Source of the DNA: Bacteroidales bacterium
GTDB taxonomy: Bacteria; Bacteroidota; Bacteroidia; Bacteroidales; F082
Direction: 5' to 3'
NCBI GenBank assembly: GCA_013141455.1
Contig: JABFQW010000021.1
Span: forward strand, 1-64,000
DNA length: 64,000 bases
Of the stretch, positions 17,114-45,773 are shown piece after piece; position 1 is the first letter of the stretch; every line of letters begins with the position of its first letter. The position numbers were made by a program, and so were the translations under genes. The notes under the pieces were generated by a model that was not told the DNA's origin, did not search any database, and saw nothing but the letters and a program-made list of their open reading frames with translations.

Positions 17114-18232
17114 ATGATACATCTCCACAAAGTAAGGGTCAGTTTTCTTCTGATTTTTTGCTTCTTCACCCTGTTGACCGGCACACTGTTTGCCCAGCCA
17201 CCGGCAGGTTATTACAACAACGCCGAAGGACTTAAAGGCCAGGAATTACAACTTGCTTTATACAATATCATCAAAGGCCATACCTCCCGTACCTATGGCG
17301 ATCTGTGGACCGATTTTCAATCGACTGATAAAACCCAGAACGGTAAAGTCTGGGATATGTATTCGGATGTGCCTGGCGGAACACCCGCCTATGAATACAC
17401 TTTCGGGAGTGATCAGTGCGGTAATTATAATGGCGAAGGTGACTGCTATAACCGCGAACATTCGTGGCCCAAAAGCTGGTTTAACGATGCAACACCTATG
17501 TACACCGAGTTGTTCCATTTAGTTCCGACCGATGGTTACGTAAACGGTAAACGCAGCAACTACCCTTTTGGTGAGGTAGGAAACGCTTCCTGGACATCTA
17601 CTAACGGTAGTAAGGTAGGAAGTTGCGATTTTCCAGGATATTCAGGAACAGTATTTGAACCCATCGACGAATATAAGGGTGATTTCGCCCGCGGGTATTT
17701 TTATATGGCCACCCGTTACCAGAATGTAATTGCAGGCTGGGAAAACTATGATTCAAACGGCGATGCTGTGATGAATGGCACGTCCTATCCGGCCTTCGAA
17801 GTTTGGACAGTTAATTTGCTGCTTGCCTGGCACACATCTGATCCGGTGAGTGCAAAAGAAATTGCTCGTAACAATGCCGTTTATGGCATTCAGCATAACC
17901 GCAATCCATATATCGATCATCCTGAATATGCTGCTTATGTCTGGGATCCGAATGTGGGAACCGATGAACTCAGTATTATGCAGGCTAAACTTACGGTATG
18001 GCCTGTTCCGGCTAAAACAAAGGTGAATTTTATGCTCGAAAACTATAAGACTGACGGCATTTACAAGGTAACGATCACTGATATCTCGGGAAGGGAACTT
18101 TCAGAACAACAAATTGAAACTGATGCGTCAAATGTCATTGAAAATTTCGAAAATCTGCATTCGGGATTTTATCTGCTTATTGTTACCGATAAAGGAAAAA
18201 CCATTGCATCGGCTAAACTGATGAAAAACTAA
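17114..18232 (+). CDS. secreted endonuclease I with type IX secretion tail
   Basis: A 372-residue extracellular DNase. Signal peptide 1-28 (ends LFAQ). The endonuclease I domain covers about 35-270, with the catalytic His in CYNREHSWPKSWF (about 112-124) followed by LFHLVPTDGYVNGKRSNYPFG and, later, NPYIDHPEYAAYVW. The last 80 residues (about 290-372: LTVWPVPAKTKVNFML, GIYKVTITDISGREL, GFYLLIVTDKGKTIASAKL) are a Por-type C-terminal sorting domain, so the enzyme leaves by the type IX pathway and may stay on the cell surface. A TAATTTTG -7-like word lies at 17019-17026. Likely role: breaking down external DNA for nutrients. Confidence 0.93.
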   Translation: MIHLHKVRVSFLLIFCFFTLLTGTLFAQPPAGYYNNAEGLKGQELQLALYNIIKGHTSRTYGDLWTDFQSTDKTQNGKVWDMYSDVPGGTPAYEYTFGSDQCGNYNGEGDCYNREHSWPKSWFNDATPMYTELFHLVPTDGYVNGKRSNYPFGEVGNASWTSTNGSKVGSCDFPGYSGTVFEPIDEYKGDFARGYFYMATRYQNVIAGWENYDSNGDAVMNGTSYPAFEVWTVNLLLAWHTSDPVSAKEIARNNAVYGIQHNRNPYIDHPEYAAYVWDPNVGTDELSIMQAKLTVWPVPAKTKVNFMLENYKTDGIYKVTITDISGRELSEQQIETDASNVIENFENLHSGFYLLIVTDKGKTIASAKLMKN

Positions 18233-22147: not shown

Positions 22148-23068
22148 ATGAAAACAACCTTAAGCTTTATCACTTTATTACTACTTACCTTTTTAACTAA
22201 AGCACAAACACCGGATTATCTGGCAAATAACCCACAATGGAGAATGAGTTCTACTTATGGTGGAGGAGGTTATTGTATACAATTTAATGAGTATTTCTAT
22301 CATCTGGATAGTGATTCAATTATCGGAGAAATTACCTATAAAAAATTAAGAAAAAGAGGATATTGCCATTCCTCTTGGATCGGTCCCCCACCAGTTGAAA
22401 ACTGTGGTACAACGGTTTATTACAATTATAGCTATGGACTGATCAGACAAGAAAACAAGAAAATGTTTTATAAGAATGGCACCTTGCCGGAGGAATTACT
22501 CTATGATTTTGACCTTCATGTAGGAGACACCTTACCTGATACCTATGGACATATTGGATATTATAGTACCGTGTATGTAATCGGAATAGACAGTATGATG
22601 ATAGGAGACGGTTACCGAAAAGTATTTATACTTGACGGAGAACAGGTGGATTGGCAAAATAAATTAATTGAAGGCGTTGGCTTCGAGAGCGGATTACTTG
22701 AAATGTTCCCGGGTTTTGAATTAGGTTCTTATTTGGATTGTTTTGCGTTAAACGATACTGTTTATTATCCGTCTTATGGCTATCCGTGTGAAATAACCGT
22801 TAACATTAGTTCAATTACTGCAGCCGATGCAATACATTGTTATCCGAATCCGGTTATTGACCGAATGACAATCGACCTTACTTTTGATGATCATATCAAT
22901 CGGATCATTGTATCTGATTTGCTTGGAAATAGCGTAGAATTGCCTTTCCGATACACAAGCGAACGGGAGATTGTGGTTGATTTTACAACCATGAAATCCG
23001 GATTGTATATTGTGCAATTACAAAACCCGAATGCTATTTCGAGTAAATTCAAGGTACTGAAACAATAA
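22148..23068 (+). CDS. secreted T9SS cargo protein of unknown function
   Basis: A 306-residue protein 28 bp after the previous cargo gene. Signal peptide 1-19 (ends TKAQ). The middle part (about 22-215) has a Cys-containing beta-rich region (YGGGGYCIQFNEYFYHLDSDSIIGEITYKKL, LYDFDLHVGDTLPD, VIGIDSMMIGDGYRKVFILDG), a pattern I have seen in many uncharacterised Bacteroidota proteins but cannot name. The last 75 residues (AIHCYPNPVIDRMTIDL, GLYIVQLQNPNAISSKFKVLKQ) are the type IX sorting tail. The two neighbours probably leave the cell together. Confidence 0.82.
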   Translation: MKTTLSFITLLLLTFLTKAQTPDYLANNPQWRMSSTYGGGGYCIQFNEYFYHLDSDSIIGEITYKKLRKRGYCHSSWIGPPPVENCGTTVYYNYSYGLIRQENKKMFYKNGTLPEELLYDFDLHVGDTLPDTYGHIGYYSTVYVIGIDSMMIGDGYRKVFILDGEQVDWQNKLIEGVGFESGLLEMFPGFELGSYLDCFALNDTVYYPSYGYPCEITVNISSITAADAIHCYPNPVIDRMTIDLTFDDHINRIIVSDLLGNSVELPFRYTSEREIVVDFTTMKSGLYIVQLQNPNAISSKFKVLKQ

Positions 23069-23155: not shown

Positions 23156-23986
23156 TCAGGGCTTTTCGCCACGGGCAAGCCGTTCGTTTATCTGGTTTAT
23201 CAGTTCACCAATCTCGGCCAGCGTATCAATTACATAGTCGGCACCAGCGCTCAGAAATATTTCCCTGACAATTTGTTTACGATTCTCAAGCTCATGACTA
23301 TCAAGCATATTGATCTCCTTCAGGGTGAGCCCCATCTCATTGCTCGTCATCACTACACCCACACTCCACATACCGGCATTGATGCCCTCTTCTATATCCG
23401 AAATCGTATCGCCGATCTTCACGATGGCGTGCAAAGGGTAAATACCAAGGTTTTCAGCATTTTTATATGCCATCCACGGCGCCGGTCTTCCGGCGGGGAC
23501 ATCTGTCGAACACACTACCGAATCGGCAACATAACCTTGTCTGGCAGCTGCATGAGTCAGAATCTCCATCATCGCATGGTTGTATCCGGTGGTTGAACCA
23601 ATTTTCATATCCAATGACCTGATCACCTTCAGGGCTTCCGGAAGTTCAGGTACGATGGTTGCATGTTCTTCGATGATAGCCAATTGCAGCGGAATAAAAT
23701 TCGTGAACATCTCTTCCACATCTTTTTCGTTGCAATCGCGCTGATAAACCAACCGCCATTCGGCCGCAACACGCGGATACTTTGATATCACCCGGATATG
23801 GTCGCGTTTGTGCATGCCCATCGGGCCACGCGCTTCCTCCATGGTGATTTCGATGCCTTTTTGCCTGAAAACTTCGATGAATACCCCTGTTGGCGCAAAG
23901 CATCCATAATCGACCGTCGTTCCGGCCCAGTCGAAAATGACAGCTTTCAACGTACCTGTGTAAATTTTTTCAAATTGGTCTTTCAT
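23156..23986 (-). CDS. phnX: phosphonoacetaldehyde hydrolase (phosphonatase)
   Basis: A 276-residue HAD-fold enzyme that splits the C-P bond of phosphonoacetaldehyde to acetaldehyde and phosphate. The nucleophile is Asp19 in VIFDWAGTTVDYG, and the special Schiff-base lysine of phosphonatases is Lys60 in GPMGMHKRDHI, which separates it from other HAD phosphatases. Later HAD motifs are GSTTGYNHAMM, GRPAPWMAYKNAE and KIGDTISDIEEGINAGMWSVGV. Length is typical. It is last in the leftward run, 2 bp after phnW, so the two steps of AEP breakdown are tightly coupled. Confidence 0.96.
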   Translation of the reverse strand: MKDQFEKIYTGTLKAVIFDWAGTTVDYGCFAPTGVFIEVFRQKGIEITMEEARGPMGMHKRDHIRVISKYPRVAAEWRLVYQRDCNEKDVEEMFTNFIPLQLAIIEEHATIVPELPEALKVIRSLDMKIGSTTGYNHAMMEILTHAAARQGYVADSVVCSTDVPAGRPAPWMAYKNAENLGIYPLHAIVKIGDTISDIEEGINAGMWSVGVVMTSNEMGLTLKEINMLDSHELENRKQIVREIFLSAGADYVIDTLAEIGELINQINERLARGEKP

Positions 23987-23988
23987 TA

Positions 23989-25134
23989 TTATTGTTTTTT
24001 TTGTTCGGTGAATACTATGTTCATTTCGTGAATTACTTTTTCGACAGCATCAATCAGGTTCTGAATATCAACCGGATAGAGCTGGCCAATATTCCCGATT
24101 CTGAAACAATCGACCTTGCTCAGTTTACCAGGATAAATGACAAATCCCATATCGTTAAGTTTTGAATAAAAGACCTCAAACGAAAAATCAGGATGGCCTG
24201 GATATAAAAAGGAGGTGATGATATAACTTCTTACATCGGGCGAAAGATATAAGGTGAAGCCCAATTTCTCCATACCACCGATGAGCAAGGCATTATTATC
24301 GGCATACCGTTGTGCCCTTGCCTCGATCCCGCCTTCATTTTCGAGTTCGATTAGCGCTTCATTGAAGGCTAACAAGGCATGAACCGGCGGGGTGAAACGA
24401 AACTGCCCGTTGGTGTTCAACCCCGACCATTGATCGTAGAGATCGAGGCTTAACGACCGTACATTTTTTTTACATTTTTCGAGTTCGATCCGTTTTGCCA
24501 GCACATAGCTGAAGCCGGGAATGCCTTCGATACATTTGTTCGAGGAGGAAATCAAATAGCTGATTTTCAATGCTCTCATATCAATATCATAAGCGCCGAA
24601 GGTACTCATAGCGTCCACGATAAAGGTCTTTTTAAGCCGGTGTGCAATTTCACCGATTTCTTCAATCGGATTCAATAAGCCGGTGGTTGTTTCGCCATGA
24701 ACTACGGCAATATGCGTGATTTCAGGATTTTCAGTGATAAGGGTTTCAATCACTGTTAAATCAGGCAACTGATTCTCGTCATACATAAGCTCAATCAGCG
24801 GAATATGGTGAATACGGGCAATCTGACTCATACGGCGACCATACGCCCCGTTTACAATATTCAGCAACATACCACTGGCAGGTATGGCAGACGTGATGGT
24901 CGATTCGATACCAAAAGTTCCGCTACCCTGTATGATAACCGCTTCGTAGTTTGGCGATTCAACATGCGCCAACGCAAGAAGTTTTTGCCTGATTTGCTGT
25001 ACGATTGCTATGAAAGCCGAATCACGCGAACCCAAATCAATCAGGGCTGCTTCTTTCACAGTTGTGCTTGTCGTTAGCGGCCCCGGTGTAAAGAGTAGTT
25101 TATCTTTTGTTCTCTTGAAATCTGATATTATCAT
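23989..25134 (-). CDS. phnW: 2-aminoethylphosphonate--pyruvate transaminase
   Basis: A 381-residue PLP enzyme that moves the amino group of 2-aminoethylphosphonate (AEP) to pyruvate, giving phosphonoacetaldehyde and alanine. Seen: LLFTPGPLTTSTTVKEAAL at the start (PnP-type opening), QGSGTFGIESTI, AVVHGETTTGLLNP, IVDAMSTFGAYDID (PLP-ring Asp at 174) and SSSNKCIEGIPGFSYVLA with PLP-binding Lys200. It is somewhat longer at the start than the Salmonella enzyme (367). It lies 12 bp after the DUF5690 transporter gene and 2 bp before phnX, a clear operon. Confidence 0.95.
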   Translation of the reverse strand: MIISDFKRTKDKLLFTPGPLTTSTTVKEAALIDLGSRDSAFIAIVQQIRQKLLALAHVESPNYEAVIIQGSGTFGIESTITSAIPASGMLLNIVNGAYGRRMSQIARIHHIPLIELMYDENQLPDLTVIETLITENPEITHIAVVHGETTTGLLNPIEEIGEIAHRLKKTFIVDAMSTFGAYDIDMRALKISYLISSSNKCIEGIPGFSYVLAKRIELEKCKKNVRSLSLDLYDQWSGLNTNGQFRFTPPVHALLAFNEALIELENEGGIEARAQRYADNNALLIGGMEKLGFTLYLSPDVRSYIITSFLYPGHPDFSFEVFYSKLNDMGFVIYPGKLSKVDCFRIGNIGQLYPVDIQNLIDAVEKVIHEMNIVFTEQKKQ

Positions 25135-25146
25135 CGATTCTAATTA

Positions 25147-26475
25147 TTAAGTAGTTACTATTTTTATTTCTGGTTTGGTTATGTCATGTGTTTTTTCGGA
25201 TACTGACTGAAACTTATGTTTAAAATACCACAACGAAAGGGCGATAAGCAAACTACCTGCTAAAGCCAATCCATAGGAAGTCGTCATCAGGAAACGAAAC
25301 CAACTCAGTTCTTTGTTATTGAAATTTTTAAAAAGTAATGCGCCAACGCTACCGAGATAACCAAATGAATCGGCCACATAAATGAAAAAACCGGCATTGG
25401 CAGCTGAGCCAAAAGCCGCGATCAGGCGGTCGAACAACAGACAATTAAAAGGGAGATACCCAAGATAGGTTCCCAATCCTAACAGAATCATCCAAACCAA
25501 CGGATTGATCATCCCTATTTTCAGTGCGAGTGTGCTTAATCCGATCAAAATAAAACCTGACAATATGATATAGTTATTCATGAGTAAGGCCTTACGGTTG
25601 TCCTTAATCAGCATCAGCAAACCCATAACGATGAAAACAATGAGGGCGATCGGCAGTTCGGACCAGGTGAAAATCATGGAGTTGCCCTTAACACCGATTG
25701 AAGCCCAGATTTCGGCGGCAAAATTGTCGCGCAGATCACGGTAAATAGTCAACAGCATATAGGCAACGGTAAGCAGTACCAAACCGGGAATAAATTCTTT
25801 GAACATTTTGTTGCGCTGACTTTTATTCATGGGGATGCGTTTTGTACGCAGCAGCTCATCTTCGGCTGTCGGTTCGGGCGTTTTGTCGAGCAACCATACC
25901 AACACGATCATGGGGACAAAAAATACAAGTCCGGTTACCCAGGGCATCTGAAAATCAGAAAGATGAAAATGAACCATCAGCATTTTGCCGATACTCTTAA
26001 CAAAACCCGATGAAACAATAAAACTGATACTCAACACAGTACCAAGTATTTCAGTCGTTTTCCGGCCTTCGAGGTAAGCAAATACCAGTCCCCAGATCAT
26101 CCCAAGCGGAAGTCCGTTCAAAAACAGAAGGACAACGTTATAAGGGGCAGGTACAATACTGAACAGCACCAGGGCAAGTTCGGCTATTCCTGTGAGGATG
26201 ATGATCGAAACAGCGCGTGAGGACCGTCCCATCTCAGAAATCACTTTGATACCGATAAATTTCGAAAGCGCGTACCCGATGACCTGCGAAATAATCAGGA
26301 GCGCTTTATAATCCATGCCACCCAGAGTCAACCCATCAAATGACGCTACCGTGAATGGTTTCCTGATGCCATACATACAGGCATAAGTCAGGAAAGCGAT
26401 CGTACTCAGATAAACCGTGAGTACGACAGGCTTACTGTTCCGTAACCAGAGCGTAACCGGGTGATTTTCAGGCAT
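25147..26475 (-). CDS. DUF5690 family membrane protein, MFS-like; candidate AEP transporter
   Basis: A 442-residue inner-membrane protein with about 12 membrane segments in two halves separated by a charged cytoplasmic loop (about 205-235, LLDKTPEPTAEDELLRTKRIPMNKSQRNK). The opening LTVYLSTIAFLTYACMYGIRKPFTVASF is like the organophosphate:phosphate antiporter branch of MFS (GlpT/UhpT/PgtP), where the YxxRKxF motif sits at the same place. The family has no proven substrate. Its place directly ahead of phnW-phnX (12 bp) suggests that it brings AEP or another aminophosphonate across the inner membrane; no ABC phosphonate transporter is present in the window. Confidence 0.82.
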   Translation of the reverse strand: MPENHPVTLWLRNSKPVVLTVYLSTIAFLTYACMYGIRKPFTVASFDGLTLGGMDYKALLIISQVIGYALSKFIGIKVISEMGRSSRAVSIIILTGIAELALVLFSIVPAPYNVVLLFLNGLPLGMIWGLVFAYLEGRKTTEILGTVLSISFIVSSGFVKSIGKMLMVHFHLSDFQMPWVTGLVFFVPMIVLVWLLDKTPEPTAEDELLRTKRIPMNKSQRNKMFKEFIPGLVLLTVAYMLLTIYRDLRDNFAAEIWASIGVKGNSMIFTWSELPIALIVFIVMGLLMLIKDNRKALLMNNYIILSGFILIGLSTLALKIGMINPLVWMILLGLGTYLGYLPFNCLLFDRLIAAFGSAANAGFFIYVADSFGYLGSVGALLFKNFNNKELSWFRFLMTTSYGLALAGSLLIALSLWYFKHKFQSVSEKTHDITKPEIKIVTT

Positions 26476-26581
26476 TGAAGTTTTATTGAGATTAGTTTTT
26501 ATGAAATCGATCGGGCATAACTATCGTACTAACTTAGCTCGAAATGCAGCTAAATCAGGCAGTTACAATAATAGTATCCGG

Positions 26582-29380
26582 CTATTTCTGGTGTCCTTCG
26601 AGCCTCCACTGATCCTGCTCTTTACTTTCGCGGATCATATCATTCGGATTGTCGATATCAGGGCCTTTGTTAAGTTGTTTCCAGTCAAATTTTTCGTCAA
26701 AAGGATCCAATGCTTTTTGCGGATCAAAAACACGAACATCAACCGGAAGCGCTGAATACGGAGTGAAATCAGGCTGATCGGTAAACATATCGGCAAAGTC
26801 AGAGGCTGTGGCATCGTATTGGTTGAGGTACGGAATACCAAAGATATTCCAGAAAGTTTTGAAAATGCTTCCGAAACTTGTGTGAACATGACCCACATAA
26901 TTTCGTTTTGTATAAGGCGAAATTACCATCAACACACTACGGTGCGCGTCCACATGGTCAACTCCACCCTGGGCATCGTCTTCGGTGATGATGATCATCA
27001 TGTTTTTCCAATAAGGGGTGTGCGACAGATACTCAACTATCCGGCCAACAGCAAGGTCGTTATCGGCTTCGTAACTTTCACGAAATGGATAACTGGCATC
27101 GGGTCTTTCGTCGGCGCCGTGGTCGTTTGGCAGGATCACGGTCAGCATTTTCGGCATGATGTCTTTTCCTTCGCCCCATTTCTCTTCAAACTCCTTTTTA
27201 AAAACATCCACCCTATACTGATCAGGGATAGCAGTGTTGTAGGTAGGATAAGCATGCGATGAATTGTTAAGCAGCGATGCCGGCAAGGGGAAATTTGCCA
27301 CTTGTTTGATACCGCCATATTTGTACGTATCCTGATAATCGGCCGGTTCGAACATTACACCAAAGCCGAAATTGAAAAACGAAACTTTATTCCGTGCCAT
27401 ATGATCCCACATCGAACCTGATTCGTTATAATCTTCCGGATAAATAGCGCCAGCAGCGCCGTTGAATCCAAGATTGCCGGGTGCATTCGATTTTTCACGG
27501 TATTCGCGGTTGCCACCATAATTTGCCGGTGTTGTTGCCTCTACCCATTCATTCGGATAGGTATTCGACAACCAGCGGTGTCCGTCAGCCGAAACATCGG
27601 AATCGACATAAAAATTGTCGCTTATCGCGAACTCCTTAGCCAACCTCAGGTGGTTGGGCATGATGGTGGAATTCGTTACCGTTGTTGATTTATCGCGGTT
27701 TGAGAAAGTAACATGGGAGCCATAACGCGCAATCGTTGAATCGCCATTGGCGCGTTGAACCTGTCCGAAAATTTCGTCGTATGTCCGGTTTTCTTTCGAA
27801 ATAAAAACAATATGTTTGATGGGAGATTCTTTCTGACCCGGGTAAAGCGGGACAGGATTGTCTTTACGCCAATCGAATTTGGCTGATTGTACGAGATTTA
27901 TTTCGAAGTTATTTTCGATTACCTCGGCGCTGAACTTCTGAAGCCTTTCCATACCCATACCGGGTATTTCAATTACTTCAACTGTTCCTTTCATAAGGCT
28001 GCCGATATAGCTGCCTTCATTACCAATTTTAAAAGTTCTGCCTCCGTTTGGCCCGCACCCAAAACCTTTGGCATTTGCTACAACCAAGTATTTTCCATCG
28101 GGTGTTACTTTCAACTTTGCCGGAAACCAGCCTGTTGGTATATGACCCGTCACGCTGAGCGAAGCAACATCAATAACGCCCACCGCATTGATTCCCGATT
28201 CGGCCACATACACCGTTTTTTCGTCGGGCGAAACAGCCAATCCAAAAGGAATGATCCCCCGCAGATGGGCGATCTTCGGTTCGGGATTCAGCTTAATATG
28301 TGTTACGATTTTTTGTTCACGGCTGTCGAGAACAGTGACATTGTCGTTGGTGCCATTGCTGATGAAAATATATTTGCCTGCTGCAACAATCGAATTCGGG
28401 CTTGAACCGCCAACAGCCGGAATACCTTCAACCATTTGCCCAACTAAGGTGCCGGTTTTTATTTTTGAAATGATCTCTGGTTTTGAAGATGTTTTTACGT
28501 CAATAGCCCACACCGAAAACGATTCATCGGCATTGATCGGTCCCAGACCCGGAACCTGCATGGTGTCGTTCAAAATTCCTTTCTCCGAAACCTCCGATCC
28601 ATAGGCATAAACCGGGAAATCGACTGTACCGCGTTTCCATTCATCCTTATTTTTACGGCTGATGTAACCATATTCATACATGCCCACATTGGCCACATAA
28701 ACGGTCTTCCCGTCTGTTGAAAGCGCGACACCAAAAGGGTACCTGCCAATGGCTATATTTGAGACAAGCTGTTGTTTCTCAAGATCAATAATGATCATTC
28801 TGAAACCAATCTGATCAACGGCATACAACAGTTTTCCATCATGGCTTATTGTCATATCACCGATATAACCATGCGTATAATCGGTTTTTTCATCCTTGAA
28901 ACTGCAATCAATCGTTCCTTTCGGTTCGCCGCTTGCAATATCGAAAATATAAACTTTGTTTGCCTGTCCACCGGCAACATAAACCACCTTGTTATCGGGC
29001 GAAATGGCCAAACCCATAAACACCGATTCGAGCACACCCTTATCACCGGCCGGTGATGGAGGAATCTGTTGTATTTCGGGATTTCCGGAATGAATATTCC
29101 GTAAAATAGTGATCGAAAGGGGATTTGTACCTGAGTTTGCTGTAACAGCTATATTTCCATCGTTACTCAATGCCAGACCGTACGGATGCGGTGCAACAAC
29201 AAAACTATTTCCGGCAGGCGTCACTATGCGGCCGTTCGGAATAACTGTTTTTCCATCTTCTATAATTTGTGTATAACGGTAGGCTGCCGGCGCACTAATT
29301 GTGTAATCAGTCTGTTGCGCGTTTACGACACAGCCAAAACAGAAAAATATCAGAAAGCTTACAAGGTTTTTCATGTTCAT
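26582..29380 (-). CDS. exported YncE-type beta-propeller fused to a phosphoesterase domain
   Basis: A 932-residue protein with a signal peptide (1-21, ends NAQQ). Residues about 30-490 form a YVTN-type propeller: repeated blades such as ALSNDGNIAVTANSGTNPLSITIL, ISPDNKVVYVAGGQANKVYIFD, LSTDGKTVYVANVG and VSPDEKTVYVAESGINAVGVID. Residues about 520-900 are a phosphoesterase domain of the PF04185 phospholipase-C/acid-phosphatase type: KHIVFISKENRTYDEIFGQ, SDNFYVDSDVSADGHRWL, VILPNDHGADERPDASY, IITEDDAQGGVDHVDAHRSVLMVISPYTKRNYVGHVHTSFGSIFKTFW. It should act in the periplasm or outside. Next to phnWX it may release AEP from ester-linked phosphonolipids or phosphonoglycans (inference). A second ATG two codons later is equally possible. 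Confidence 0.9.
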   Translation of the reverse strand: MNMKNLVSFLIFFCFGCVVNAQQTDYTISAPAAYRYTQIIEDGKTVIPNGRIVTPAGNSFVVAPHPYGLALSNDGNIAVTANSGTNPLSITILRNIHSGNPEIQQIPPSPAGDKGVLESVFMGLAISPDNKVVYVAGGQANKVYIFDIASGEPKGTIDCSFKDEKTDYTHGYIGDMTISHDGKLLYAVDQIGFRMIIIDLEKQQLVSNIAIGRYPFGVALSTDGKTVYVANVGMYEYGYISRKNKDEWKRGTVDFPVYAYGSEVSEKGILNDTMQVPGLGPINADESFSVWAIDVKTSSKPEIISKIKTGTLVGQMVEGIPAVGGSSPNSIVAAGKYIFISNGTNDNVTVLDSREQKIVTHIKLNPEPKIAHLRGIIPFGLAVSPDEKTVYVAESGINAVGVIDVASLSVTGHIPTGWFPAKLKVTPDGKYLVVANAKGFGCGPNGGRTFKIGNEGSYIGSLMKGTVEVIEIPGMGMERLQKFSAEVIENNFEINLVQSAKFDWRKDNPVPLYPGQKESPIKHIVFISKENRTYDEIFGQVQRANGDSTIARYGSHVTFSNRDKSTTVTNSTIMPNHLRLAKEFAISDNFYVDSDVSADGHRWLSNTYPNEWVEATTPANYGGNREYREKSNAPGNLGFNGAAGAIYPEDYNESGSMWDHMARNKVSFFNFGFGVMFEPADYQDTYKYGGIKQVANFPLPASLLNNSSHAYPTYNTAIPDQYRVDVFKKEFEEKWGEGKDIMPKMLTVILPNDHGADERPDASYPFRESYEADNDLAVGRIVEYLSHTPYWKNMMIIITEDDAQGGVDHVDAHRSVLMVISPYTKRNYVGHVHTSFGSIFKTFWNIFGIPYLNQYDATASDFADMFTDQPDFTPYSALPVDVRVFDPQKALDPFDEKFDWKQLNKGPDIDNPNDMIRESKEQDQWRLEGHQK

Positions 29381-29500
29381 TAATTTCAGGAATGAAAAAT
29401 ACGATTTTTAATCTGCCAATGATTTAGAAATTTTTAAAAAAAGTCAGAAGTTGGAAGACCCGGGTGGAACGTACAATCAACTTAAACTGTGACCTCCTAA

Positions 29501-29537
29501 TTGTTGGTTCGTTGATTCGTTGAATTGTTGAATCGTT
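29501..29537. repeat. short degenerate tandem repeat (GTTGAATCG-like)
   Basis: About four imperfect 8- to 11-bp units (GTTGGTTCG, TTGATTCG, TTGAATTG, TTGAATCG). Purpose unknown; it lies between genes of the phosphonate block. Confidence 0.5.
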
Positions 29538-29667
29538 TTATTCGCCCCGGCCTTCCGACTTCCGACTTTACGTTTTTTAGCTCAGCTGATCCAACAGGAT
29601 AGTGATCTTGTCTGTAATGCTTTTATGCAACCGGTTATAGATGTGAAAGAACGATTATTTTAAGAAT

Positions 29668-29696
29668 GGTTGTCGGAAGCTACGCTTCCGACAACC
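29668..29696 (-). terminator. hairpin after susCD
   Basis: A perfect 13-bp stem (GGTTGTCGGAAGC at 29668-29680 against 29684-29696) with a 3-nt loop, 40 bp beyond the susD stop. On the coding strand it is followed by ATTCTTAAAATAATCGTTC, moderately T-rich, so it likely ends or attenuates the susCD transcript. Confidence 0.65.
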
Positions 29697-29736
29697 CACT
29701 CTTTTCACTAAACCAACACAACGTTTTAACCAAAAA

Positions 29737-31224
29737 CTATTTTATTAACCACATTTCTGCATTGATATCATCGGTTTCCGAACCAAACTGATTCATCAAA
29801 GCATCATTATTATTATCTGTATTGTAATCGGGTTCAGATTGAGGATACATCCAGCGTTTTGCGATCCGACCGCTATTACCGGTTCCGACACCTGTCAGGA
29901 ACTCGGGAACACCCGTGCGACGATTGTTGTAGTATGCTTCCCAACCTGAATTCTGGAAGAATCCAAGGTATTTCTGTGTCAGAATCTGATTCAATCCTTC
30001 GGCGTTGTCACCTTTGTAGGCGACTACGCTTTGTGCATAGTAATCTTCCCAGTTTGCCAACACGTTAACGCCATGAAAAGTCCATGAAGCCTGAATACCA
30101 TTTTTATAAAATTCTTCGGCATTTCCACTGATCCAGCCACGGCTGATGGCTTCGGCAATATTGAAACATAGTTCAATATACCCGATCTGGATGGCTGGTT
30201 CGCCGGTATAGGTTCCATAATATTTTGCCTTGTTGATGGCCGAATATTCGCCTGCCAACATTTTTGCCGACATATCATCCAGACTTTCGCCTGAACTTGC
30301 GCCAACATAGGCTTCATAATCAGCGGCAGTATAACCTTCCTCAAGTTTTTTGAGTGCAGGTTCGGCCACAATGAAAGTTCTGGGATCGCGAAGTAAAACC
30401 AGCGTGTTCAGATAGGTAGCCGACATATTGTTACGGGTAGCCGTAAAACCATAGTTATCGGGATTTAAAGGATATTTATCGGTGCTGTTGTTAAATACAA
30501 ATGAAAGGTTGTCATCCAACGACAACATAACCGGGTATTTGCCAGGATTGCCAACAACATCAGCAAAAAGTTGCTTAATATTGAGATCAGCATCACTTTC
30601 CTTTTTACTTAAGGCAATTAAGGTACGTAGTTTAAAGGTGTTCACCACTTTCTGCCACCTTACTAAATCGTTTCCAAGCATAAAGTCACCAGCCAATATT
30701 TTATCATTATTATCGATTAATAATTGTAAATCGCTGTTAGCTTCTTCGAGCCAGGTAAGTGATTGCAAAAAAACTTCCTTTTGTGTATTGTATTTGGGAG
30801 CAATATTATCAAGTCCCTGTAAGGCTTCCGTCAGAGGTAAATCGCCCAGACGCATCGACATATCAATAAAATAATACGCTTTGAAAAATTTAGCCAGGGC
30901 TGAATAAGCGTTTACTTCGGGCAATCCGATACGTTCGGCTTCGGCCACCATCTGTTTCACATCGTTCAGTTTCAAATAATTGAAGTATGTCCTCATCCAA
31001 TCATACTCCTGATCATCGTAATAGGCATAGTTGCTGCACCAAAACTGATTCCATCTTTGTTCGGCGCTCCATGGATCATACACCGTTCCTCTTAATACAC
31101 TGGTGAAAATAAGTGATGGAGGCACTTCGCCCGGTCGGTTCGGGTCTTTTTCAAGGTCTTCAAATTTTTTACAGGCCGTAAAAGTGATGGCGAGTAAAAT
31201 GAAGAAAGTCAATATTTTTTTCAT
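29737..31224 (-). CDS. SusD/RagB-like outer-membrane nutrient-binding lipoprotein
   Basis: A 495-residue surface lipoprotein that caps a SusC channel and captures substrate. The signal peptide ends in the lipobox TFTAC, with Cys18 as lipid anchor. The mature start FEDLEKDPNRPGEVPPSLIFTSVLRG is the opening of the SusD-like_2 subgroup; tetratricopeptide-like helices follow (NYLKLNDVKQMVAEAERIG, ALAKFFKAYYFIDMSMRLGDLPLTEAL), and the end PEFLTGVGTGNSGRIAKRWMYPQSEPDYN is typical. It starts 28 bp after susC. Sugar is not the only possible ligand for this family; here the neighbours point to an aminophosphonate compound (inference). Confidence 0.94.
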   Translation of the reverse strand: MKKILTFFILLAITFTACKKFEDLEKDPNRPGEVPPSLIFTSVLRGTVYDPWSAEQRWNQFWCSNYAYYDDQEYDWMRTYFNYLKLNDVKQMVAEAERIGLPEVNAYSALAKFFKAYYFIDMSMRLGDLPLTEALQGLDNIAPKYNTQKEVFLQSLTWLEEANSDLQLLIDNNDKILAGDFMLGNDLVRWQKVVNTFKLRTLIALSKKESDADLNIKQLFADVVGNPGKYPVMLSLDDNLSFVFNNSTDKYPLNPDNYGFTATRNNMSATYLNTLVLLRDPRTFIVAEPALKKLEEGYTAADYEAYVGASSGESLDDMSAKMLAGEYSAINKAKYYGTYTGEPAIQIGYIELCFNIAEAISRGWISGNAEEFYKNGIQASWTFHGVNVLANWEDYYAQSVVAYKGDNAEGLNQILTQKYLGFFQNSGWEAYYNNRRTGVPEFLTGVGTGNSGRIAKRWMYPQSEPDYNTDNNNDALMNQFGSETDDINAEMWLIK

Positions 31225-31252
31225 ATTTATTCGATTTTAATTTTATTCAGTT

Positions 31253-34200
31253 TTAGAAAGTTAAGTTGATGTTTACACCATAGCGACGTGTGGATGGAGT
31301 TTGAAGTCCTGAATAGGCATTACCTCCGGTATATTGTTCAACATCGATATCCTTTTTCTCTGCAAAATAAAGCAGGTTACGTCCGATGAAAGAGATGTTA
31401 GCCTGATCGATAAATGTATTTTTCAGGAAACGTTTTGGCAGGGTGTAGGTTAACACGACTTCACGCAGCTTGATGAAAGTACGGCTCATATTGACAGCGT
31501 TATCAGTACCGTAATAACGGCTTACGTAATCCTGAGCATAAGTGGCGGTTGCATTGGGTGCAAATTGCAACTGATCGTAATTGGAGATATTGCCGTTAGC
31601 ATCGTATTCAATAGCCACATCATTGCTAACATATACACCATCTCCGATATAGGATTTGATACCCTGAATGTCGTTCAGACGTGCTTCGCCTAATTTGCCC
31701 TGGATGGTTTCGATATGACGGCCACCCTGGAAGGTTTTCTTTTCGACATAATCGAGGATGGTGCCACCAAAGCGTCCATCAATCTGGAATGAAAAGCTTA
31801 AAGCTTTATAACTGAAAGTATTGCGTATAGCGCCTACCCAGTCAGGGTTCGAATAGCCGAGTATTTGCGCTTTTGGGTTACGTATCGGGCGGCCACTTCC
31901 ATCGTTGATCAATTGTCCGTCCGGGGTTCTGATAAAATCACTGCCTGTTATAATATCTGAACGATCTCCCACTTTCAGGAACTCGCCCAATTTGTCAACA
32001 CCCTGATAAATCTCTTTCAGGTATTCACGAAAAGAGGTGTAATTGGCTGAAACTTCCCATTTGAATCCCCCACTATATACCGGTACGGCCGTAGCTTCCA
32101 TTTCAACACCCTTACGTTGGTATTTTTTACCATTGACGAGTTTATACCCATAACCAGATGCTTCTGAAATACCAAGAGAGAAAATACTCGGGCCTTCAAT
32201 ACTCGAGAAATAGGTAAATCCAAAAGTCAAACGATTGTCAAACAAACCGATATCCGTTCCCGCATCCCAGGCCGAATTAAAACTTGGTTTGAGCTCAGGA
32301 TTGGTAATGGTACCTGTGTAAGAAGCGCCGGGAAGGCCTTGAATCAGGCTGATAGAATAAGCAGGGGTGTTTTCAAAAGTCGGACCATCATAAGGAGAAT
32401 AATAATTTCCACCATAACCCGTAACACTGGAACCTTGTTCAACGTCAGTTGATGTGATGGAAGATCTTGTCAGGGCACCACCTACATTTGACCATGATCC
32501 GCGCACCTTAAACGAATTTACCTTAGGTATGGTAAATAGCTTTGACAACTCAATACTGGAGGAAACACTTGGGTAGAAATAGACACTGTTTGCAACGGGT
32601 AAGGTGGAATTTTTATCCCAGCGACCTGTAAAAGAAAGCGTTGCAAAATCATCATAGGTAAAGTCGGCCATGGCATAACCGCTCAACACCATCATGGGTG
32701 CATAGAGGCTGTACGATTTAACCGGATCTTTTGAGTTGCGGAGGTTATACCAGCCCGGAACATTCATATAATTGGTTGAGGCATAACTACTGCGGAATGA
32801 ATACGTACGTAGGTTTCCACCGGCGTAGGCATGTACGTTTAATTTTGGAATTACATATTTGTCGAATGTTAACAGTACATCGGTATTGTTATCGAATAAG
32901 GAGCGTTTGTCTTCGCGGTAATCGCCCAAACCGGCTTCCCGGCCATAAGGATGTGCTGAAAATGGTAATTTCTCATTACGGAATAAATCATAGGATGTTA
33001 TCGCTGTACGGGCCATCAGGTTCAGATAATTGTTGATTTTGTAATTTGCCATCAGATATCCGTAAACATCGGTTTTGTAATGACCACGCAACCATTCGTA
33101 CGACATGAAATATGGGTTGTGATAGCGTTGGTATTCGGCATATTTCGACTGAACACCTTCCTTACCGGGCTGCCAGTAATCGCGCATATCGTCAATATCC
33201 CAATCGGCTCCACCCCAGGTGGTAATATTGTAGATGATACTGTTCGGACCATAACTTACGTCCGGTGTATTGGGAGTATATTGGCGGCTATAAGCCATAT
33301 TTGCTTCGAGGCGAAGTTTTTTCGAAATATTGTAACCGGCTGAGAGGTTAAATCCTGTCATATTCAGTGAAGTGTTCGGAACAATCCCTTTCTGGTAAGT
33401 GTGTGAAGCCGAGAAACGCAAATCATATTTTTCATTTGCCGTTGAAACAGCCAGGTTGTTGGTTGATAACAACCCTGTTTCGATGAAACGCTCAAGGTTG
33501 TCTTTACCACGGGCAATCCATGGTGTAGGAATACGTTCACCAGTTTCCGGATCGATCGGGCTGTCGTATTGGGCAATCAACTGACCATCAAATTTCGGAC
33601 CCCAGATATCATAGTCACCATCGTTGAGTCCACCCCCTCTTCCGTCGCCAAAAGAATACTTACCATGATCACCAGGACCATATTCGTCCTGAACTTTGGG
33701 AATAGCAAGGAAACCTTTTTCGAACATGGTGCTCGAGTTAAAGTCAACCGTGAAATCTTTCTTTCCTGTTTTTTTTCCACGTTTCGTAGTGATCTGGATC
33801 ACACCATTCATACCCCTTGAGCCATACAAAGCGCCGGCGCTGGGTCCTTTCAGAACTGTATAACTTTCAATATCATCAGGACTGAGGTTCCATGAATCGG
33901 TTAAAACTGGCACGCCATCGATAACATACAAAGGTGCAAGTCCGCGTAATGATACGCTGGGCGCTCCGAGTAGTTCAGGGGAACCTCCTACTACAAGACC
34001 GGCGACCTTTCCAACGAGTGAATTGATGGCATTGGGTTCGCGGGCTTTCACAAGATCATCGCCTTCCACTTCGCTAACGGCATATCCGATGGTACTCTTC
34101 TTTTTCTCAATACCAAGCGCCGTAACGATCACATCATCGAGCTGCTGAGCCGACTCGGAAAGCGATACATTGATAAGCGTTTGACCGGCCATTGTTACTT

Positions 34201-34444
34201 CTTTTGTTTCATATCCAACAAATGAAAAAACAAGCACATCATTTTGTTGTGCTGAAATTGAATAATGACCATCAAAATCGGTAAGAACCCCGGTTGTAGT
34301 CCCTTTGACCACCACGCTTGCACCGGGGAGACTCTCTCCCTGTGTTGTACTTACAGTGCCTTCGACACCCAACTTTTGAGCGAAGGCCGATATTCCAAGG
34401 ACCAAGAATATCATAATTAAAGTGTAAACTTTTCTTTTGTACAT
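31253..34444 (-). CDS. SusC/RagA-like TonB-dependent outer-membrane transporter
   Basis: A 1063-residue TonB-dependent channel that imports bulky nutrients with the SusD partner. Signal peptide 1-22; CarboxypepD_reg-like beta sandwich at about 25-105 (VEGTVSTTQGESLPGASVVVKGTTTGVLTDFDGHYSI); plug domain at about 115-225 (DDVIVTALGIEKKKSTIGYAVSEV, NSLVGKVAGLVVGG, IESYTVLKGPSAGALYGSRGMNGVIQITTKRG); the rest is the 22-strand barrel, ending in RRYGVNINLTF with the usual aromatic last residue. There is no N-terminal STN signalling domain, so it should not work through an ECF/anti-sigma pair. It is followed by susD, 28 bp on. Confidence 0.96.
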   Translation of the reverse strand: MYKRKVYTLIMIFLVLGISAFAQKLGVEGTVSTTQGESLPGASVVVKGTTTGVLTDFDGHYSISAQQNDVLVFSFVGYETKEVTMAGQTLINVSLSESAQQLDDVIVTALGIEKKKSTIGYAVSEVEGDDLVKAREPNAINSLVGKVAGLVVGGSPELLGAPSVSLRGLAPLYVIDGVPVLTDSWNLSPDDIESYTVLKGPSAGALYGSRGMNGVIQITTKRGKKTGKKDFTVDFNSSTMFEKGFLAIPKVQDEYGPGDHGKYSFGDGRGGGLNDGDYDIWGPKFDGQLIAQYDSPIDPETGERIPTPWIARGKDNLERFIETGLLSTNNLAVSTANEKYDLRFSASHTYQKGIVPNTSLNMTGFNLSAGYNISKKLRLEANMAYSRQYTPNTPDVSYGPNSIIYNITTWGGADWDIDDMRDYWQPGKEGVQSKYAEYQRYHNPYFMSYEWLRGHYKTDVYGYLMANYKINNYLNLMARTAITSYDLFRNEKLPFSAHPYGREAGLGDYREDKRSLFDNNTDVLLTFDKYVIPKLNVHAYAGGNLRTYSFRSSYASTNYMNVPGWYNLRNSKDPVKSYSLYAPMMVLSGYAMADFTYDDFATLSFTGRWDKNSTLPVANSVYFYPSVSSSIELSKLFTIPKVNSFKVRGSWSNVGGALTRSSITSTDVEQGSSVTGYGGNYYSPYDGPTFENTPAYSISLIQGLPGASYTGTITNPELKPSFNSAWDAGTDIGLFDNRLTFGFTYFSSIEGPSIFSLGISEASGYGYKLVNGKKYQRKGVEMEATAVPVYSGGFKWEVSANYTSFREYLKEIYQGVDKLGEFLKVGDRSDIITGSDFIRTPDGQLINDGSGRPIRNPKAQILGYSNPDWVGAIRNTFSYKALSFSFQIDGRFGGTILDYVEKKTFQGGRHIETIQGKLGEARLNDIQGIKSYIGDGVYVSNDVAIEYDANGNISNYDQLQFAPNATATYAQDYVSRYYGTDNAVNMSRTFIKLREVVLTYTLPKRFLKNTFIDQANISFIGRNLLYFAEKKDIDVEQYTGGNAYSGLQTPSTRRYGVNINLTF

Positions 34445-34525
34445 AATGTTTAGGATAGGTTAATTAATTTGGTTTTACCTGCTTTGGTTCTTCTGCTATT
34501 GAAAAACCTGATAAAAGGTTTCTGC

Positions 34526-35098
34526 TTAATAATTCAGCTGAACCCTGTTGATGAATAAATCAACGCGTGATTCGTTGTCATTTAACGAACTAAGCTCTGA
34601 TTCAAACTTCTCAGTATCAGTTACCCTGATATTGAGCGCGATATCCAATACTTTATTCATGATTGTAAATGCTGAATCAACTGTCATTTCACCTTTTTTA
34701 ACTTTACGTTTCAGGTGTTTTTCAATACGTTTTACTGCATCATAAATCACCGGTTTCGAGATAAGGGTTTTGGTGAGTGGATTTCCTGGTACAACGGCTT
34801 CCTGCGAAGTGTATTTTCCATCGAGCAGATAGAGCTTTTTGGCGATTGATTCGCCCAGGATGTGTTCTCCGGCTATATCAGTGGTAATCTGATCGAGTTC
34901 ATACTCACGGGGAAAACCCTGAAATTCGAACTTTGGTAATGCCTTTCCCGGAATTTCGGTCGGCGTATTGTTTGATGTTGATGCAAAGGCAAAAGTATCC
35001 TGCGCATACGGTTTATTCGAAATGAGGGTACACAATAAAAATATTGGGAAGATGATGCTTCTGATATTTCCTTTTTGTGGTAGTTTCATTGTATTCAT
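34526..35098 (-). CDS. exported protein of unknown function ahead of susC
   Basis: 190 residues from the ATG complementary to 35096-35098, just before a signal peptide (MKLPQKGNIRSIIFPIFLLCTLISNKPYAQ); nine more codons upstream are open. The mature part is small and helical after residue 100 (YDAVKRIEKHLKRKVKKGEMTVDSAFTIMNKVLDIALNIR) and contains a TTDIAGEHILGESIAKKLYLLDG stretch. No family is recognised. It lies 81 bp before susC on the same strand, after a 774-bp spacer, so it is probably the first gene of the susCD transcript and may be a periplasmic helper or sensor for that system. The susC start might also have its own promoter in the 81-bp gap. Confidence 0.7.
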   Translation of the reverse strand: MNTMKLPQKGNIRSIIFPIFLLCTLISNKPYAQDTFAFASTSNNTPTEIPGKALPKFEFQGFPREYELDQITTDIAGEHILGESIAKKLYLLDGKYTSQEAVVPGNPLTKTLISKPVIYDAVKRIEKHLKRKVKKGEMTVDSAFTIMNKVLDIALNIRVTDTEKFESELSSLNDNESRVDLFINRVQLNY

Positions 35099-35430
35099 GT
35101 TAGTTTTAGATTTAGGTTGTGACAACGTTGATGGAAATAATTAAATCGTAAATTTTGGTTCAACTTTTAATGAATATTGTATTTGTAGATTTCTGTGCAA
35201 AGGAACCCCGATAGTATTATTGGCATGTTAGCGAATTATTACAGAATTGTTAATTATGTAGAGTGATTCTGGATAAGCGCCTATTATATAACTTACAATA
35301 TGTCAATGGAATACTTGGGCTGACTATTTAGCGAGATCAAGCATTGGATCAAAATATATACTACCAAATCGCTATGTTTCAGAGGATAAATCTTAAAAAT
35401 CATTAAAATAAATCCGGCCCGGTCTTCATG

Positions 35431-35445
35431 TTAACATAATGTTAA
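35431..35445. promoter_or_regulatory. 15-bp palindrome, possible operator
   Basis: TTAACATAATGTTAA reads the same on both strands apart from the central base, in the spacer ahead of the exported-unknown/susCD unit. It could bind a dimeric regulator; no regulator gene is close by. Confidence 0.3.
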
Positions 35446-44327: not shown

Positions 44328-45773
44328 CTAATAAACCAGCGTCTGAATCGATCGTGCAGGGCTCACCACTTCCACGGCATTACCTTCAACCCAAAGGAAA
44401 TACGAAACTTTTTCGTCACCGGCATTCATCACAACCACGGCTGTTTTGCCATCGGTATTTACAAATGCCGTTGCCAGCAGCGAACTGCGGCTTGGCGAAC
44501 AGGCTAATCTTTTTGCTCCCGGACGGATAAATTTCGAAAAGTGTCCGATATAATAGTATTCGTTGGTATAAATCAGTTCTCCGATTTTGGTATTGCCATG
44601 GATAGGAGCAAAACAAAGGTTCATCACATGGTTCGGGCCGCCGGTTTCATCGAGCAGGATGTTCCAGTCGGTGAAACCAACACAACCGTTGTTAAAATCA
44701 TTGATGATGGCACGTCCATATAATTCGCCTAAGTTCCAGTCGTTCACCTTGTTGATGTCGAAACTCTCTTTGCAGCCTTCGGTAAATAGCAGATTGGTAT
44801 TCGGAAAAGCCTGGTTCACCACTTTCACATTGTCGAACATGGGTGCGCCACCGCTCCAGGGTTCGTACCAGTGAAATCCGATTCCCCACACATATTTGGC
44901 TGCTTCAGGATCGTTCAACATGACTGAAGTACGTTGTAACAACAAATCACGGTTGTGATCCCAGGCGATAATCTTTTTTTCGCCATACCCTTCGCGCTGC
45001 ATGGTTGGCCCTAAATAATTCTTTAAGAAATCCCTTTCTTCTTCGGCTGTGTAGATGCACGATTCCCATTTCTGGGTAGCCATGGGTTCGTTTTGTATCG
45101 AGATGCCCCAGATCGGGATGCCTTCCTTTTCGTAAGCTTTAATAAATTGGGTATAATAATTTGCCCATGACTGATAGTAATCGGGAAGCAATGAACCTCC
45201 ACGCAACATAGTATTATTGCTTTTCATGAAAGCCGGCGGGCTCCATGGACTCGCATACAAGGTGATTGGTTTTCCGGCTGTTTCGAGCGCCCTTTTAATC
45301 ATAGGAACCCTGAACATCCTATCATGTGCGATGGTGAATGTTTTCAGTTCTTTGTCGCCTTCTTCAATATACGTATAGCTGCCGCTCGAAAAATCACAAC
45401 TGTGAATCGTTGTACGAAGCAACGAATACCCGATTCCTTTTTCGGCATCAAAATATGCTGTCATGAACTCCTGCTGTTTGTCGGCAGGCAGTTTGGCAAA
45501 AGTTTCAGCCGAAGCATCGGTGATTGCTCCGCCGATTCCAAGCAGTGTCTGGAAAGTAACGGATGGCTCAACAAACACACAGGTTTGTGTTTCGAGTGGT
45601 TGATTCATGGGTCTGAATTCAAACTCACCCGTTACCGACAGGCGTGAATCCGTGTTTTCGGCAGTGGTATAAACGACTACTTTTTTTGTTTCCGAAACGC
45701 CCGAAACAGTCTGAATCTGAGCAAATAAACTAACAGCGAACAAGGCCGGTACAAGGAGAATAAGTTTTTTCAT
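44328..45773 (-). CDS. secreted GH30 glycoside hydrolase (glucosylceramidase-like)
   Basis: A 481-residue exported enzyme. Signal peptide 1-19 (ends SLFAQ). The (beta/alpha)8 domain shows FQTLLGIGGAITDASAETFAKL (75-96), YSLLRTTIHSCDFSSGSYTY, ASPWSPPAFMKSNNTMLRGG, the acid/base Glu229 in GISIQNEPMA and the nucleophile Glu332 in LLFTEGCKES; the short beta-sandwich typical of GH30 closes the chain. Bacteroidota members split beta-1,6-glucans or beta-glucosides; which one here cannot be read from sequence. It stands alone, without SusCD, between the accessory spot and the U32 gene. Confidence 0.94.
   Translation of the reverse strand: MKKLILLVPALFAVSLFAQIQTVSGVSETKKVVVYTTAENTDSRLSVTGEFEFRPMNQPLETQTCVFVEPSVTFQTLLGIGGAITDASAETFAKLPADKQQEFMTAYFDAEKGIGYSLLRTTIHSCDFSSGSYTYIEEGDKELKTFTIAHDRMFRVPMIKRALETAGKPITLYASPWSPPAFMKSNNTMLRGGSLLPDYYQSWANYYTQFIKAYEKEGIPIWGISIQNEPMATQKWESCIYTAEEERDFLKNYLGPTMQREGYGEKKIIAWDHNRDLLLQRTSVMLNDPEAAKYVWGIGFHWYEPWSGGAPMFDNVKVVNQAFPNTNLLFTEGCKESFDINKVNDWNLGELYGRAIINDFNNGCVGFTDWNILLDETGGPNHVMNLCFAPIHGNTKIGELIYTNEYYYIGHFSKFIRPGAKRLACSPSRSSLLATAFVNTDGKTAVVVMNAGDEKVSYFLWVEGNAVEVVSPARSIQTLVY

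Follow-up and report, generated by a model that had tools for sequence, protein, structure and literature searches.

A candidate outside-to-inside aminophosphonate utilization locus in Bacteroidales, with a SusCD pair from a phosphonate-linked clade

SusCD systems usually import glycans. Why, then, is a SusC/SusD pair encoded in the same run as enzymes that degrade 2-aminoethylphosphonate (AEP)? The pair in question belongs to seven minus-strand genes at positions 23,156-35,098 of the window, by which we mean the whole 64,000-nucleotide stretch of Bacteroidales DNA that was analyzed. In order, the products of these genes are a short exported protein, SusC, SusD, an exported propeller-phosphoesterase, DUF5690, PhnW, and PhnX. 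The locus appears to capture phosphonates outside the cell, import them via SusCD, and degrade them for phosphorus and nitrogen. We assign a probability of roughly three in four to the reading that SusCD, the esterase, DUF5690, and PhnWX together form an outside-to-inside aminophosphonate utilization locus. A preliminary description of this DNA had proposed such a SusCD phosphonate foraging locus, with DUF5690 as the predicted inner-membrane importer, and the idea gains support from conserved gene linkage and from a SusD tree.

Genes of the locus and a proposed pathway

All seven leftward open reading frames of the preliminary description were recovered on the minus strand, and the only coordinate that changed is one start. 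The exported protein at the head of the run is better begun at an ATG at 35,098 than at the TTG at 35,125 chosen before (Table 1). This 190-aa protein was searched against Pfam and NCBIfam and matched no model. Its homologues are encoded immediately ahead of SusC in the same-genus genome L041 and at seven named loci from lake MAGs (L198, L199, L200, L204-L207). The next two genes, a TIGR04056 SusC and a SusD lipoprotein whose lipoprotein cysteine (C18) is invariant, qualify as a SusCD pair. At the other end of the run, PhnW and PhnX both pass their equivalog cut-offs. The PLP lysine of PhnW aligns with that of the solved PhnW 9kk8, and the nucleophile Asp and Schiff-base Lys of PhnX align with those of the solved 1rql, which bears out the earlier identification of both enzymes by their active-site lysines. 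The two equivalogs, with their catalytic residues, make up the AEP phosphonatase pathway. Searches with Pfam and NCBIfam turned up no carbohydrate-active enzyme in the run, as had been noted previously for glycoside hydrolases, and the run thus does not qualify as a polysaccharide utilization locus.

Table 1. Features of the locus, in the direction of transcription
Feature	Position (strand)	Basis and remarks
Short exported protein	34526..35098 (-)	190 aa; function unknown; precedes susC directly in closest relatives
SusC-type TonB-dependent outer-membrane transporter	31253..34444 (-)	TIGR04056 493.6 bits; signature TIGR04057; Plug and CarbopepD_reg_2 domains
SusD-type surface lipoprotein (SusD-like_2)	29737..31224 (-)	PF12771 200 bits; member of phosphonate-linked clade
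Hairpin between susD and esterase gene	29669..29695 (-)	May mark a step-down in expression or a processing site
Exported YncE-like propeller fused to PF04185-type phosphoesterase	26582..29380 (-)	932 aa; candidate phosphonate/phosphate ester hydrolase
DUF5690, MFS-fold, organophosphate-exchanger-like	25147..26475 (-)	PF18943 547 bits; predicted inner-membrane aminophosphonate importer
PhnW, 2-aminoethylphosphonate:pyruvate transaminase	23989..25134 (-)	NCBIfam equivalog TIGR02326 481 bits (cut-off 400.8)
PhnX, phosphonoacetaldehyde hydrolase	23156..23986 (-)	NCBIfam equivalog TIGR01422 343 bits (cut-off 220)

Intergenic gaps in the run are short, except for one of 356 bp (29,381-29,736) between susD and the esterase gene. 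A perfect direct repeat, TTAACAT-N4-TTAACAT (TTAACATTATGTTAACAT; 35428-35445, minus strand), lies roughly 330-350 bp ahead of the first gene and is the sole exact copy in the genome. It was considered as a PhoB-type 11-bp Pho box and rejected: near-matches in the genome are no commoner than those of a reversed control, and the repeat is absent in relatives. No Pho box was established at the locus.

Elsewhere in the window, a GH30 glycoside hydrolase (44328-45773, minus strand) is encoded some 9 kb away from the locus. The genes at 50115-53093 (+) and 59540-62476 (-) specify large sensors that combine two-component propeller, Y_Y_Y, and histidine-kinase domains. Those at 17114-18232 (+) and 22148-23068 (+) specify secreted proteins that carry Por-secretion sorting tails, and one of these proteins is an endonuclease I.

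In the proposed pathway, SusD and SusC would bind and take up a molecule that carries a phosphonate group, most likely an AEP ester. Being small, AEP itself could enter by diffusion through porins; the presence of SusCD therefore implies a larger substrate. The exported propeller-phosphoesterase would, we infer, cleave the ester in the periplasm and thereby free AEP. Passage of AEP over the inner membrane would fall to DUF5690, probably by antiport with phosphate or symport with protons. PhnW would then convert AEP and pyruvate to phosphonoacetaldehyde and alanine, and PhnX would convert phosphonoacetaldehyde to acetaldehyde and phosphate.

A SusD clade linked to phosphonate genes

The full seven-gene block recurs in the same order in L041, with 72-90% protein identity; thus, the gene run is not due to chance. 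Beyond the genus, a lake Bacteroidales MAG (L198) encodes on a single strand the unknown protein, SusC, SusD, an FAD oxidoreductase, PbfA, the propeller-phosphoesterase, DUF5690, PhnW, and PhnX. The distant locus L081 reads SusC, SusD, one other gene, propeller-phosphoesterase, DUF5690, PhnX-like, and HpnW.

A search with SusD that was blind to phn genes covered 395 Bacteroidota genomes. It produced 16 loci outside the genus with a SusD of at least about 41% identity. SusD lies within about 10 kb of DUF5690 in 10 of these, and in three more (L158, L159, L161) it stands beside other phosphonate enzymes. The next-nearest SusDs, at 32-38% identity, had a phosphonate enzyme in none of the 16 loci read.

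A second sample consisted of the best 80 named loci ranked by SusD similarity only, in which the core families DUF5690, PhnW, PhnX or PhnX-like, HpnW, PhnHD, and PbfA were counted. At least one of these families is present within the retrieved stretch in 65 of the best 80 loci, a count that is depressed by short contigs, and in 49/55 of the loci of at least 15 kb; at least three families are present in 46/80. The possibility raised in the preliminary description, that this type of SusCD occurs mostly without phn genes, is therefore not borne out. Comparison of 65/80 with the 0/16 of the next-nearest SusDs gives a Fisher p of 4.5e-10, which is a guide only because related loci are not independent. 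The six long loci (at least 15 kb) that lack phosphonate genes are all from Dyadobacter (L255, L260, L262, L263, L271, L274), and their SusCD belongs to the phosphonate clade. In L260, the sole annotated locus of the six, SusCD is found beside the housekeeping genes for DNA polymerase I and an oligopeptidase. An esterase or phosphodiesterase is present in 48 of the best 80 loci, as would be predicted for import of an ester.

The clade to which the SusCD pair belongs is associated with phosphonate genes across many families of Bacteroidota. A maximum-likelihood tree (quick method) of 121 SusDs places the window SusD in a 97-member clade (SH-aLRT 100), of which 80 members have phosphonate genes, nine do not, and eight are on contigs too short to judge; the part of this clade sampled via DUF5690 is biased, and the 80 named loci were sampled by SusD only. 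The adjoining branches hold exclusively SusDs without phosphonate genes.

A second, distantly related SusD group was seen beside DUF5690 (L055, L057, L065, L084, L088), in the DUF5690-based sample only. It is possibly another phosphonate or organophosphate SusCD.

The esterase is distributed more widely. Its motifs ENRTYD (530-535), D593/S597/GH (600-601), EDD (800-802), and DHxDAHR (808-814) are invariant in 18 relatives, and its propeller is of the YncE/lactonase type. Matches in a fold search were dominated by this propeller, and the catalytic domain was not placed. The nearest relatives from other families (L171-L175; 61-64% identity) are in loci without phosphonate genes, and the family, being common outside phosphonate loci too, is not phosphonate-specific. 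Thus, the enzyme is probably a general phospho- or phosphono-esterase that was recruited to the locus. In L172-L175, from another family, the propeller-phosphoesterase has a different conserved context, with genes for an EamA transporter, a PfkB kinase, and an M1 peptidase as neighbors in L173.

Two neighbors in related loci were also considered. L199 has no propeller esterase, and a CehA/McbA-like metallohydrolase encoded there between susD and pbfA (L199:11807-12895; 62.8 bits, below the cut-off of 80) may replace it. A saccharopine-dehydrogenase-like neighbor in L200 was dropped as a candidate for PbfF; the paper on PbfF makes no mention of this protein family.

DUF5690 as a predicted organophosphate-exchanger-like carrier

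No mention of DUF5690 was found in the open-licence papers searched. Its confident AlphaFold (AF2) model (pLDDT 92.5) has the major-facilitator fold that characterizes the OPA family, and the protein is predicted to be an MFS transporter resembling organophosphate exchangers of the GlpT/G6PT type. Among its best structural matches are human G6PT/SLC37A4 (Z 32.4, rmsd 3.1, 362 aligned, 17% identity) and GlpT (Z 27.4, rmsd 4.0, 403 aligned, 15% identity), with many other MFS carriers nearly equal in score. The N-terminal half aligns with GlpT and G6PT at z 6.1 and 7.1, respectively, beating all 500 shuffles. In this alignment, the invariant DUF5690 residues Y31, R38, and K72 correspond to Y38, R45, and K80 of GlpT; R38 thus pairs with the TM1 arginine, R45 (z 6.1). 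R246 of DUF5690 is also invariant and was compared with the TM7 arginine R269 of GlpT, within a C-half alignment that is not significant. DUF5690 matched no model at all in NCBIfam and no MFS model in Pfam, its sequence searches of the PDB gave no match, and hhalign against the replacement carriers described below gave a TM1 match only (probability 3.8). Since it matches no OPA model, we do not count DUF5690 as a member of that family.

The best evidence for a role in inner-membrane import comes from gene substitution. A true GlpT-family transporter is found in place of DUF5690 in four related loci (L201, L203, L206, L246), and the two are mutually exclusive: DUF5690 occurs in 47 loci, the GlpT-like protein in 4, and both in 0.

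A total of 48 DUF5690 loci were drawn blind to phn genes. A phosphonate enzyme lies within 10 kb of DUF5690 in 36 of them, and at least two such enzymes in 31, versus 0/30 control loci. The other 12 loci have no phosphonate enzyme nearby, and no common alternative gene context was found among them. Recurrent neighbors of DUF5690 are TIGR03351 (PhnX-like), TIGR03364 (HpnW FAD oxidoreductase), TIGR03276 (PhnHD oxygenase), PbfA, and PF01663-type phosphodiesterases, some representatives of which fall just below the curated cut-off.

A broader proposal, which we consider a little better than an even bet, is that DUF5690 proteins constitute a new family of OPA-like exchangers that carry phosphonates across the inner membrane. 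Together with the phosphonate-dedicated SusCD clade, they would form a widespread and unrecognized "selfish" route by which Bacteroidota obtain phosphonate esters from lipids or glycans.

Alternative readings and known systems

The usual role of SusCD as a glycan importer would fit a classical polysaccharide utilization locus that carries phn genes by chance. However, the seven genes lack a carbohydrate-active enzyme, and the recurrent neighbors of the SusD clade are phosphonate enzymes and phosphodiesterases, so that we give this reading almost no credence. Alternatively, two independent units might be adjacent by accident, with SusCD (35,098-29,737) serving an unknown ligand and the remaining genes (29,380-23,156) degrading AEP. 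Our analysis confirms the hairpin to which the preliminary description drew attention in the 356-bp gap: it has no second copy in the genome (folding z -7.7) and is kept in the sister species (L041, z -5.5), where one U-A to C-G double change retains pairing. Such a stable, conserved element could separate two transcripts. However, its U-tract is weak and not of the proper kind on the minus strand, the direction of the genes, and other phosphonate genes occupy the gap in L198. Moreover, the linkage of SusCD to phosphonate genes persists across many families despite reshuffled gene order. We interpret the hairpin as a site of stepped expression or of processing rather than as a functional boundary, and regard accidental adjacency as very unlikely.

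It is also conceivable that the locus scavenges organophosphates along with phosphonates. SusCD, the esterase, and DUF5690 would then import general phosphodiesters (lipid head groups, teichoic-acid-like molecules, or nucleic-acid fragments), and PhnWX would handle the phosphonate fraction only. OPA-type carriers do handle organophosphates, and esterases of this family and of PF01663 are found without phn genes. In addition, the Pus loci of Flavobacterium are thought to target phosphodiesters (PMC8115612). However, the placement of the SusD clade beside phosphonate-specific genes (65 of the best 80 loci, 46 of them with three or more core families) is more specific than general phosphate scavenging predicts, and we consider general scavenging unlikely. 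Our preferred reading remains a locus for aminophosphonate utilization.

If aminophosphonate utilization is indeed the function, one SusCD clade together with DUF5690 would fill a gap in Bacteroidota, whose plant-associated members have been reported to be without common organophosphorus transporters (PMC8115612). A substrate class would also be named for many SusCDs that lack glycoside hydrolases, the unstudied DUF5690 family would gain a testable role, and bound phosphonates (phosphonolipids and phosphonoglycans) would be a nutrient for these bacteria.

The preliminary description stated that no SusCD system for phosphonates had been described. This is not quite right: for Flavobacterium, Lidbury et al. 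2020 described SusCDs that are induced by phosphate starvation and lie next to enzymes degrading phosphonates, as phosphate utilization systems (PUS) with six PusCDs (PMC8115612). In gene content (SusCD, phosphorus enzymes, and no CAZymes), the locus described here matches this PUS/PusCD type and would be a variant of it. However, the Flavobacterium PUS is defined by Pi-starvation induction, whereas the present locus is known by gene content and linkage. PUS was described from Flavobacterium, whereas the SusD clade spans many families, and neither PhnX nor DUF5690 nor a SusD clade specific to phosphonates appears in the main text of that report (PMC8115612). The present analysis extends this precedent in three ways: a SusD clade that is linked to phosphonate genes and found across many families, a PhnWX version of the locus, and a role proposed for DUF5690.

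The PhnW-PhnX (phosphonatase) clusters of Proteobacteria have the same two core enzymes, and PbfA and FAD oxidoreductases, which are accessory proteins there, are also found repeatedly in relatives of the window locus. The AEP importers described in the open-licence papers searched are inner-membrane systems, and known uptake in those clusters is by AepXVW, AepP, and AepSTU (PMC8316502), whereas SusCD and DUF5690 are found here instead. With the OPA family (GlpT, UhpT, G6PT/SLC37A4), DUF5690 shares the MFS fold, the Tyr-Arg-Lys pattern of the N-terminal half, and the locus slot that GlpT-family proteins can occupy, but it differs in matching no OPA or MFS model and in a C-terminal half without significant sequence similarity. 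The SusC/SusD uptake architecture is that of the starch utilization system and of polysaccharide utilization loci. In contrast to those systems, the locus has no glycoside hydrolase or other CAZyme, and its enzymes act on C-P and P-O bonds.
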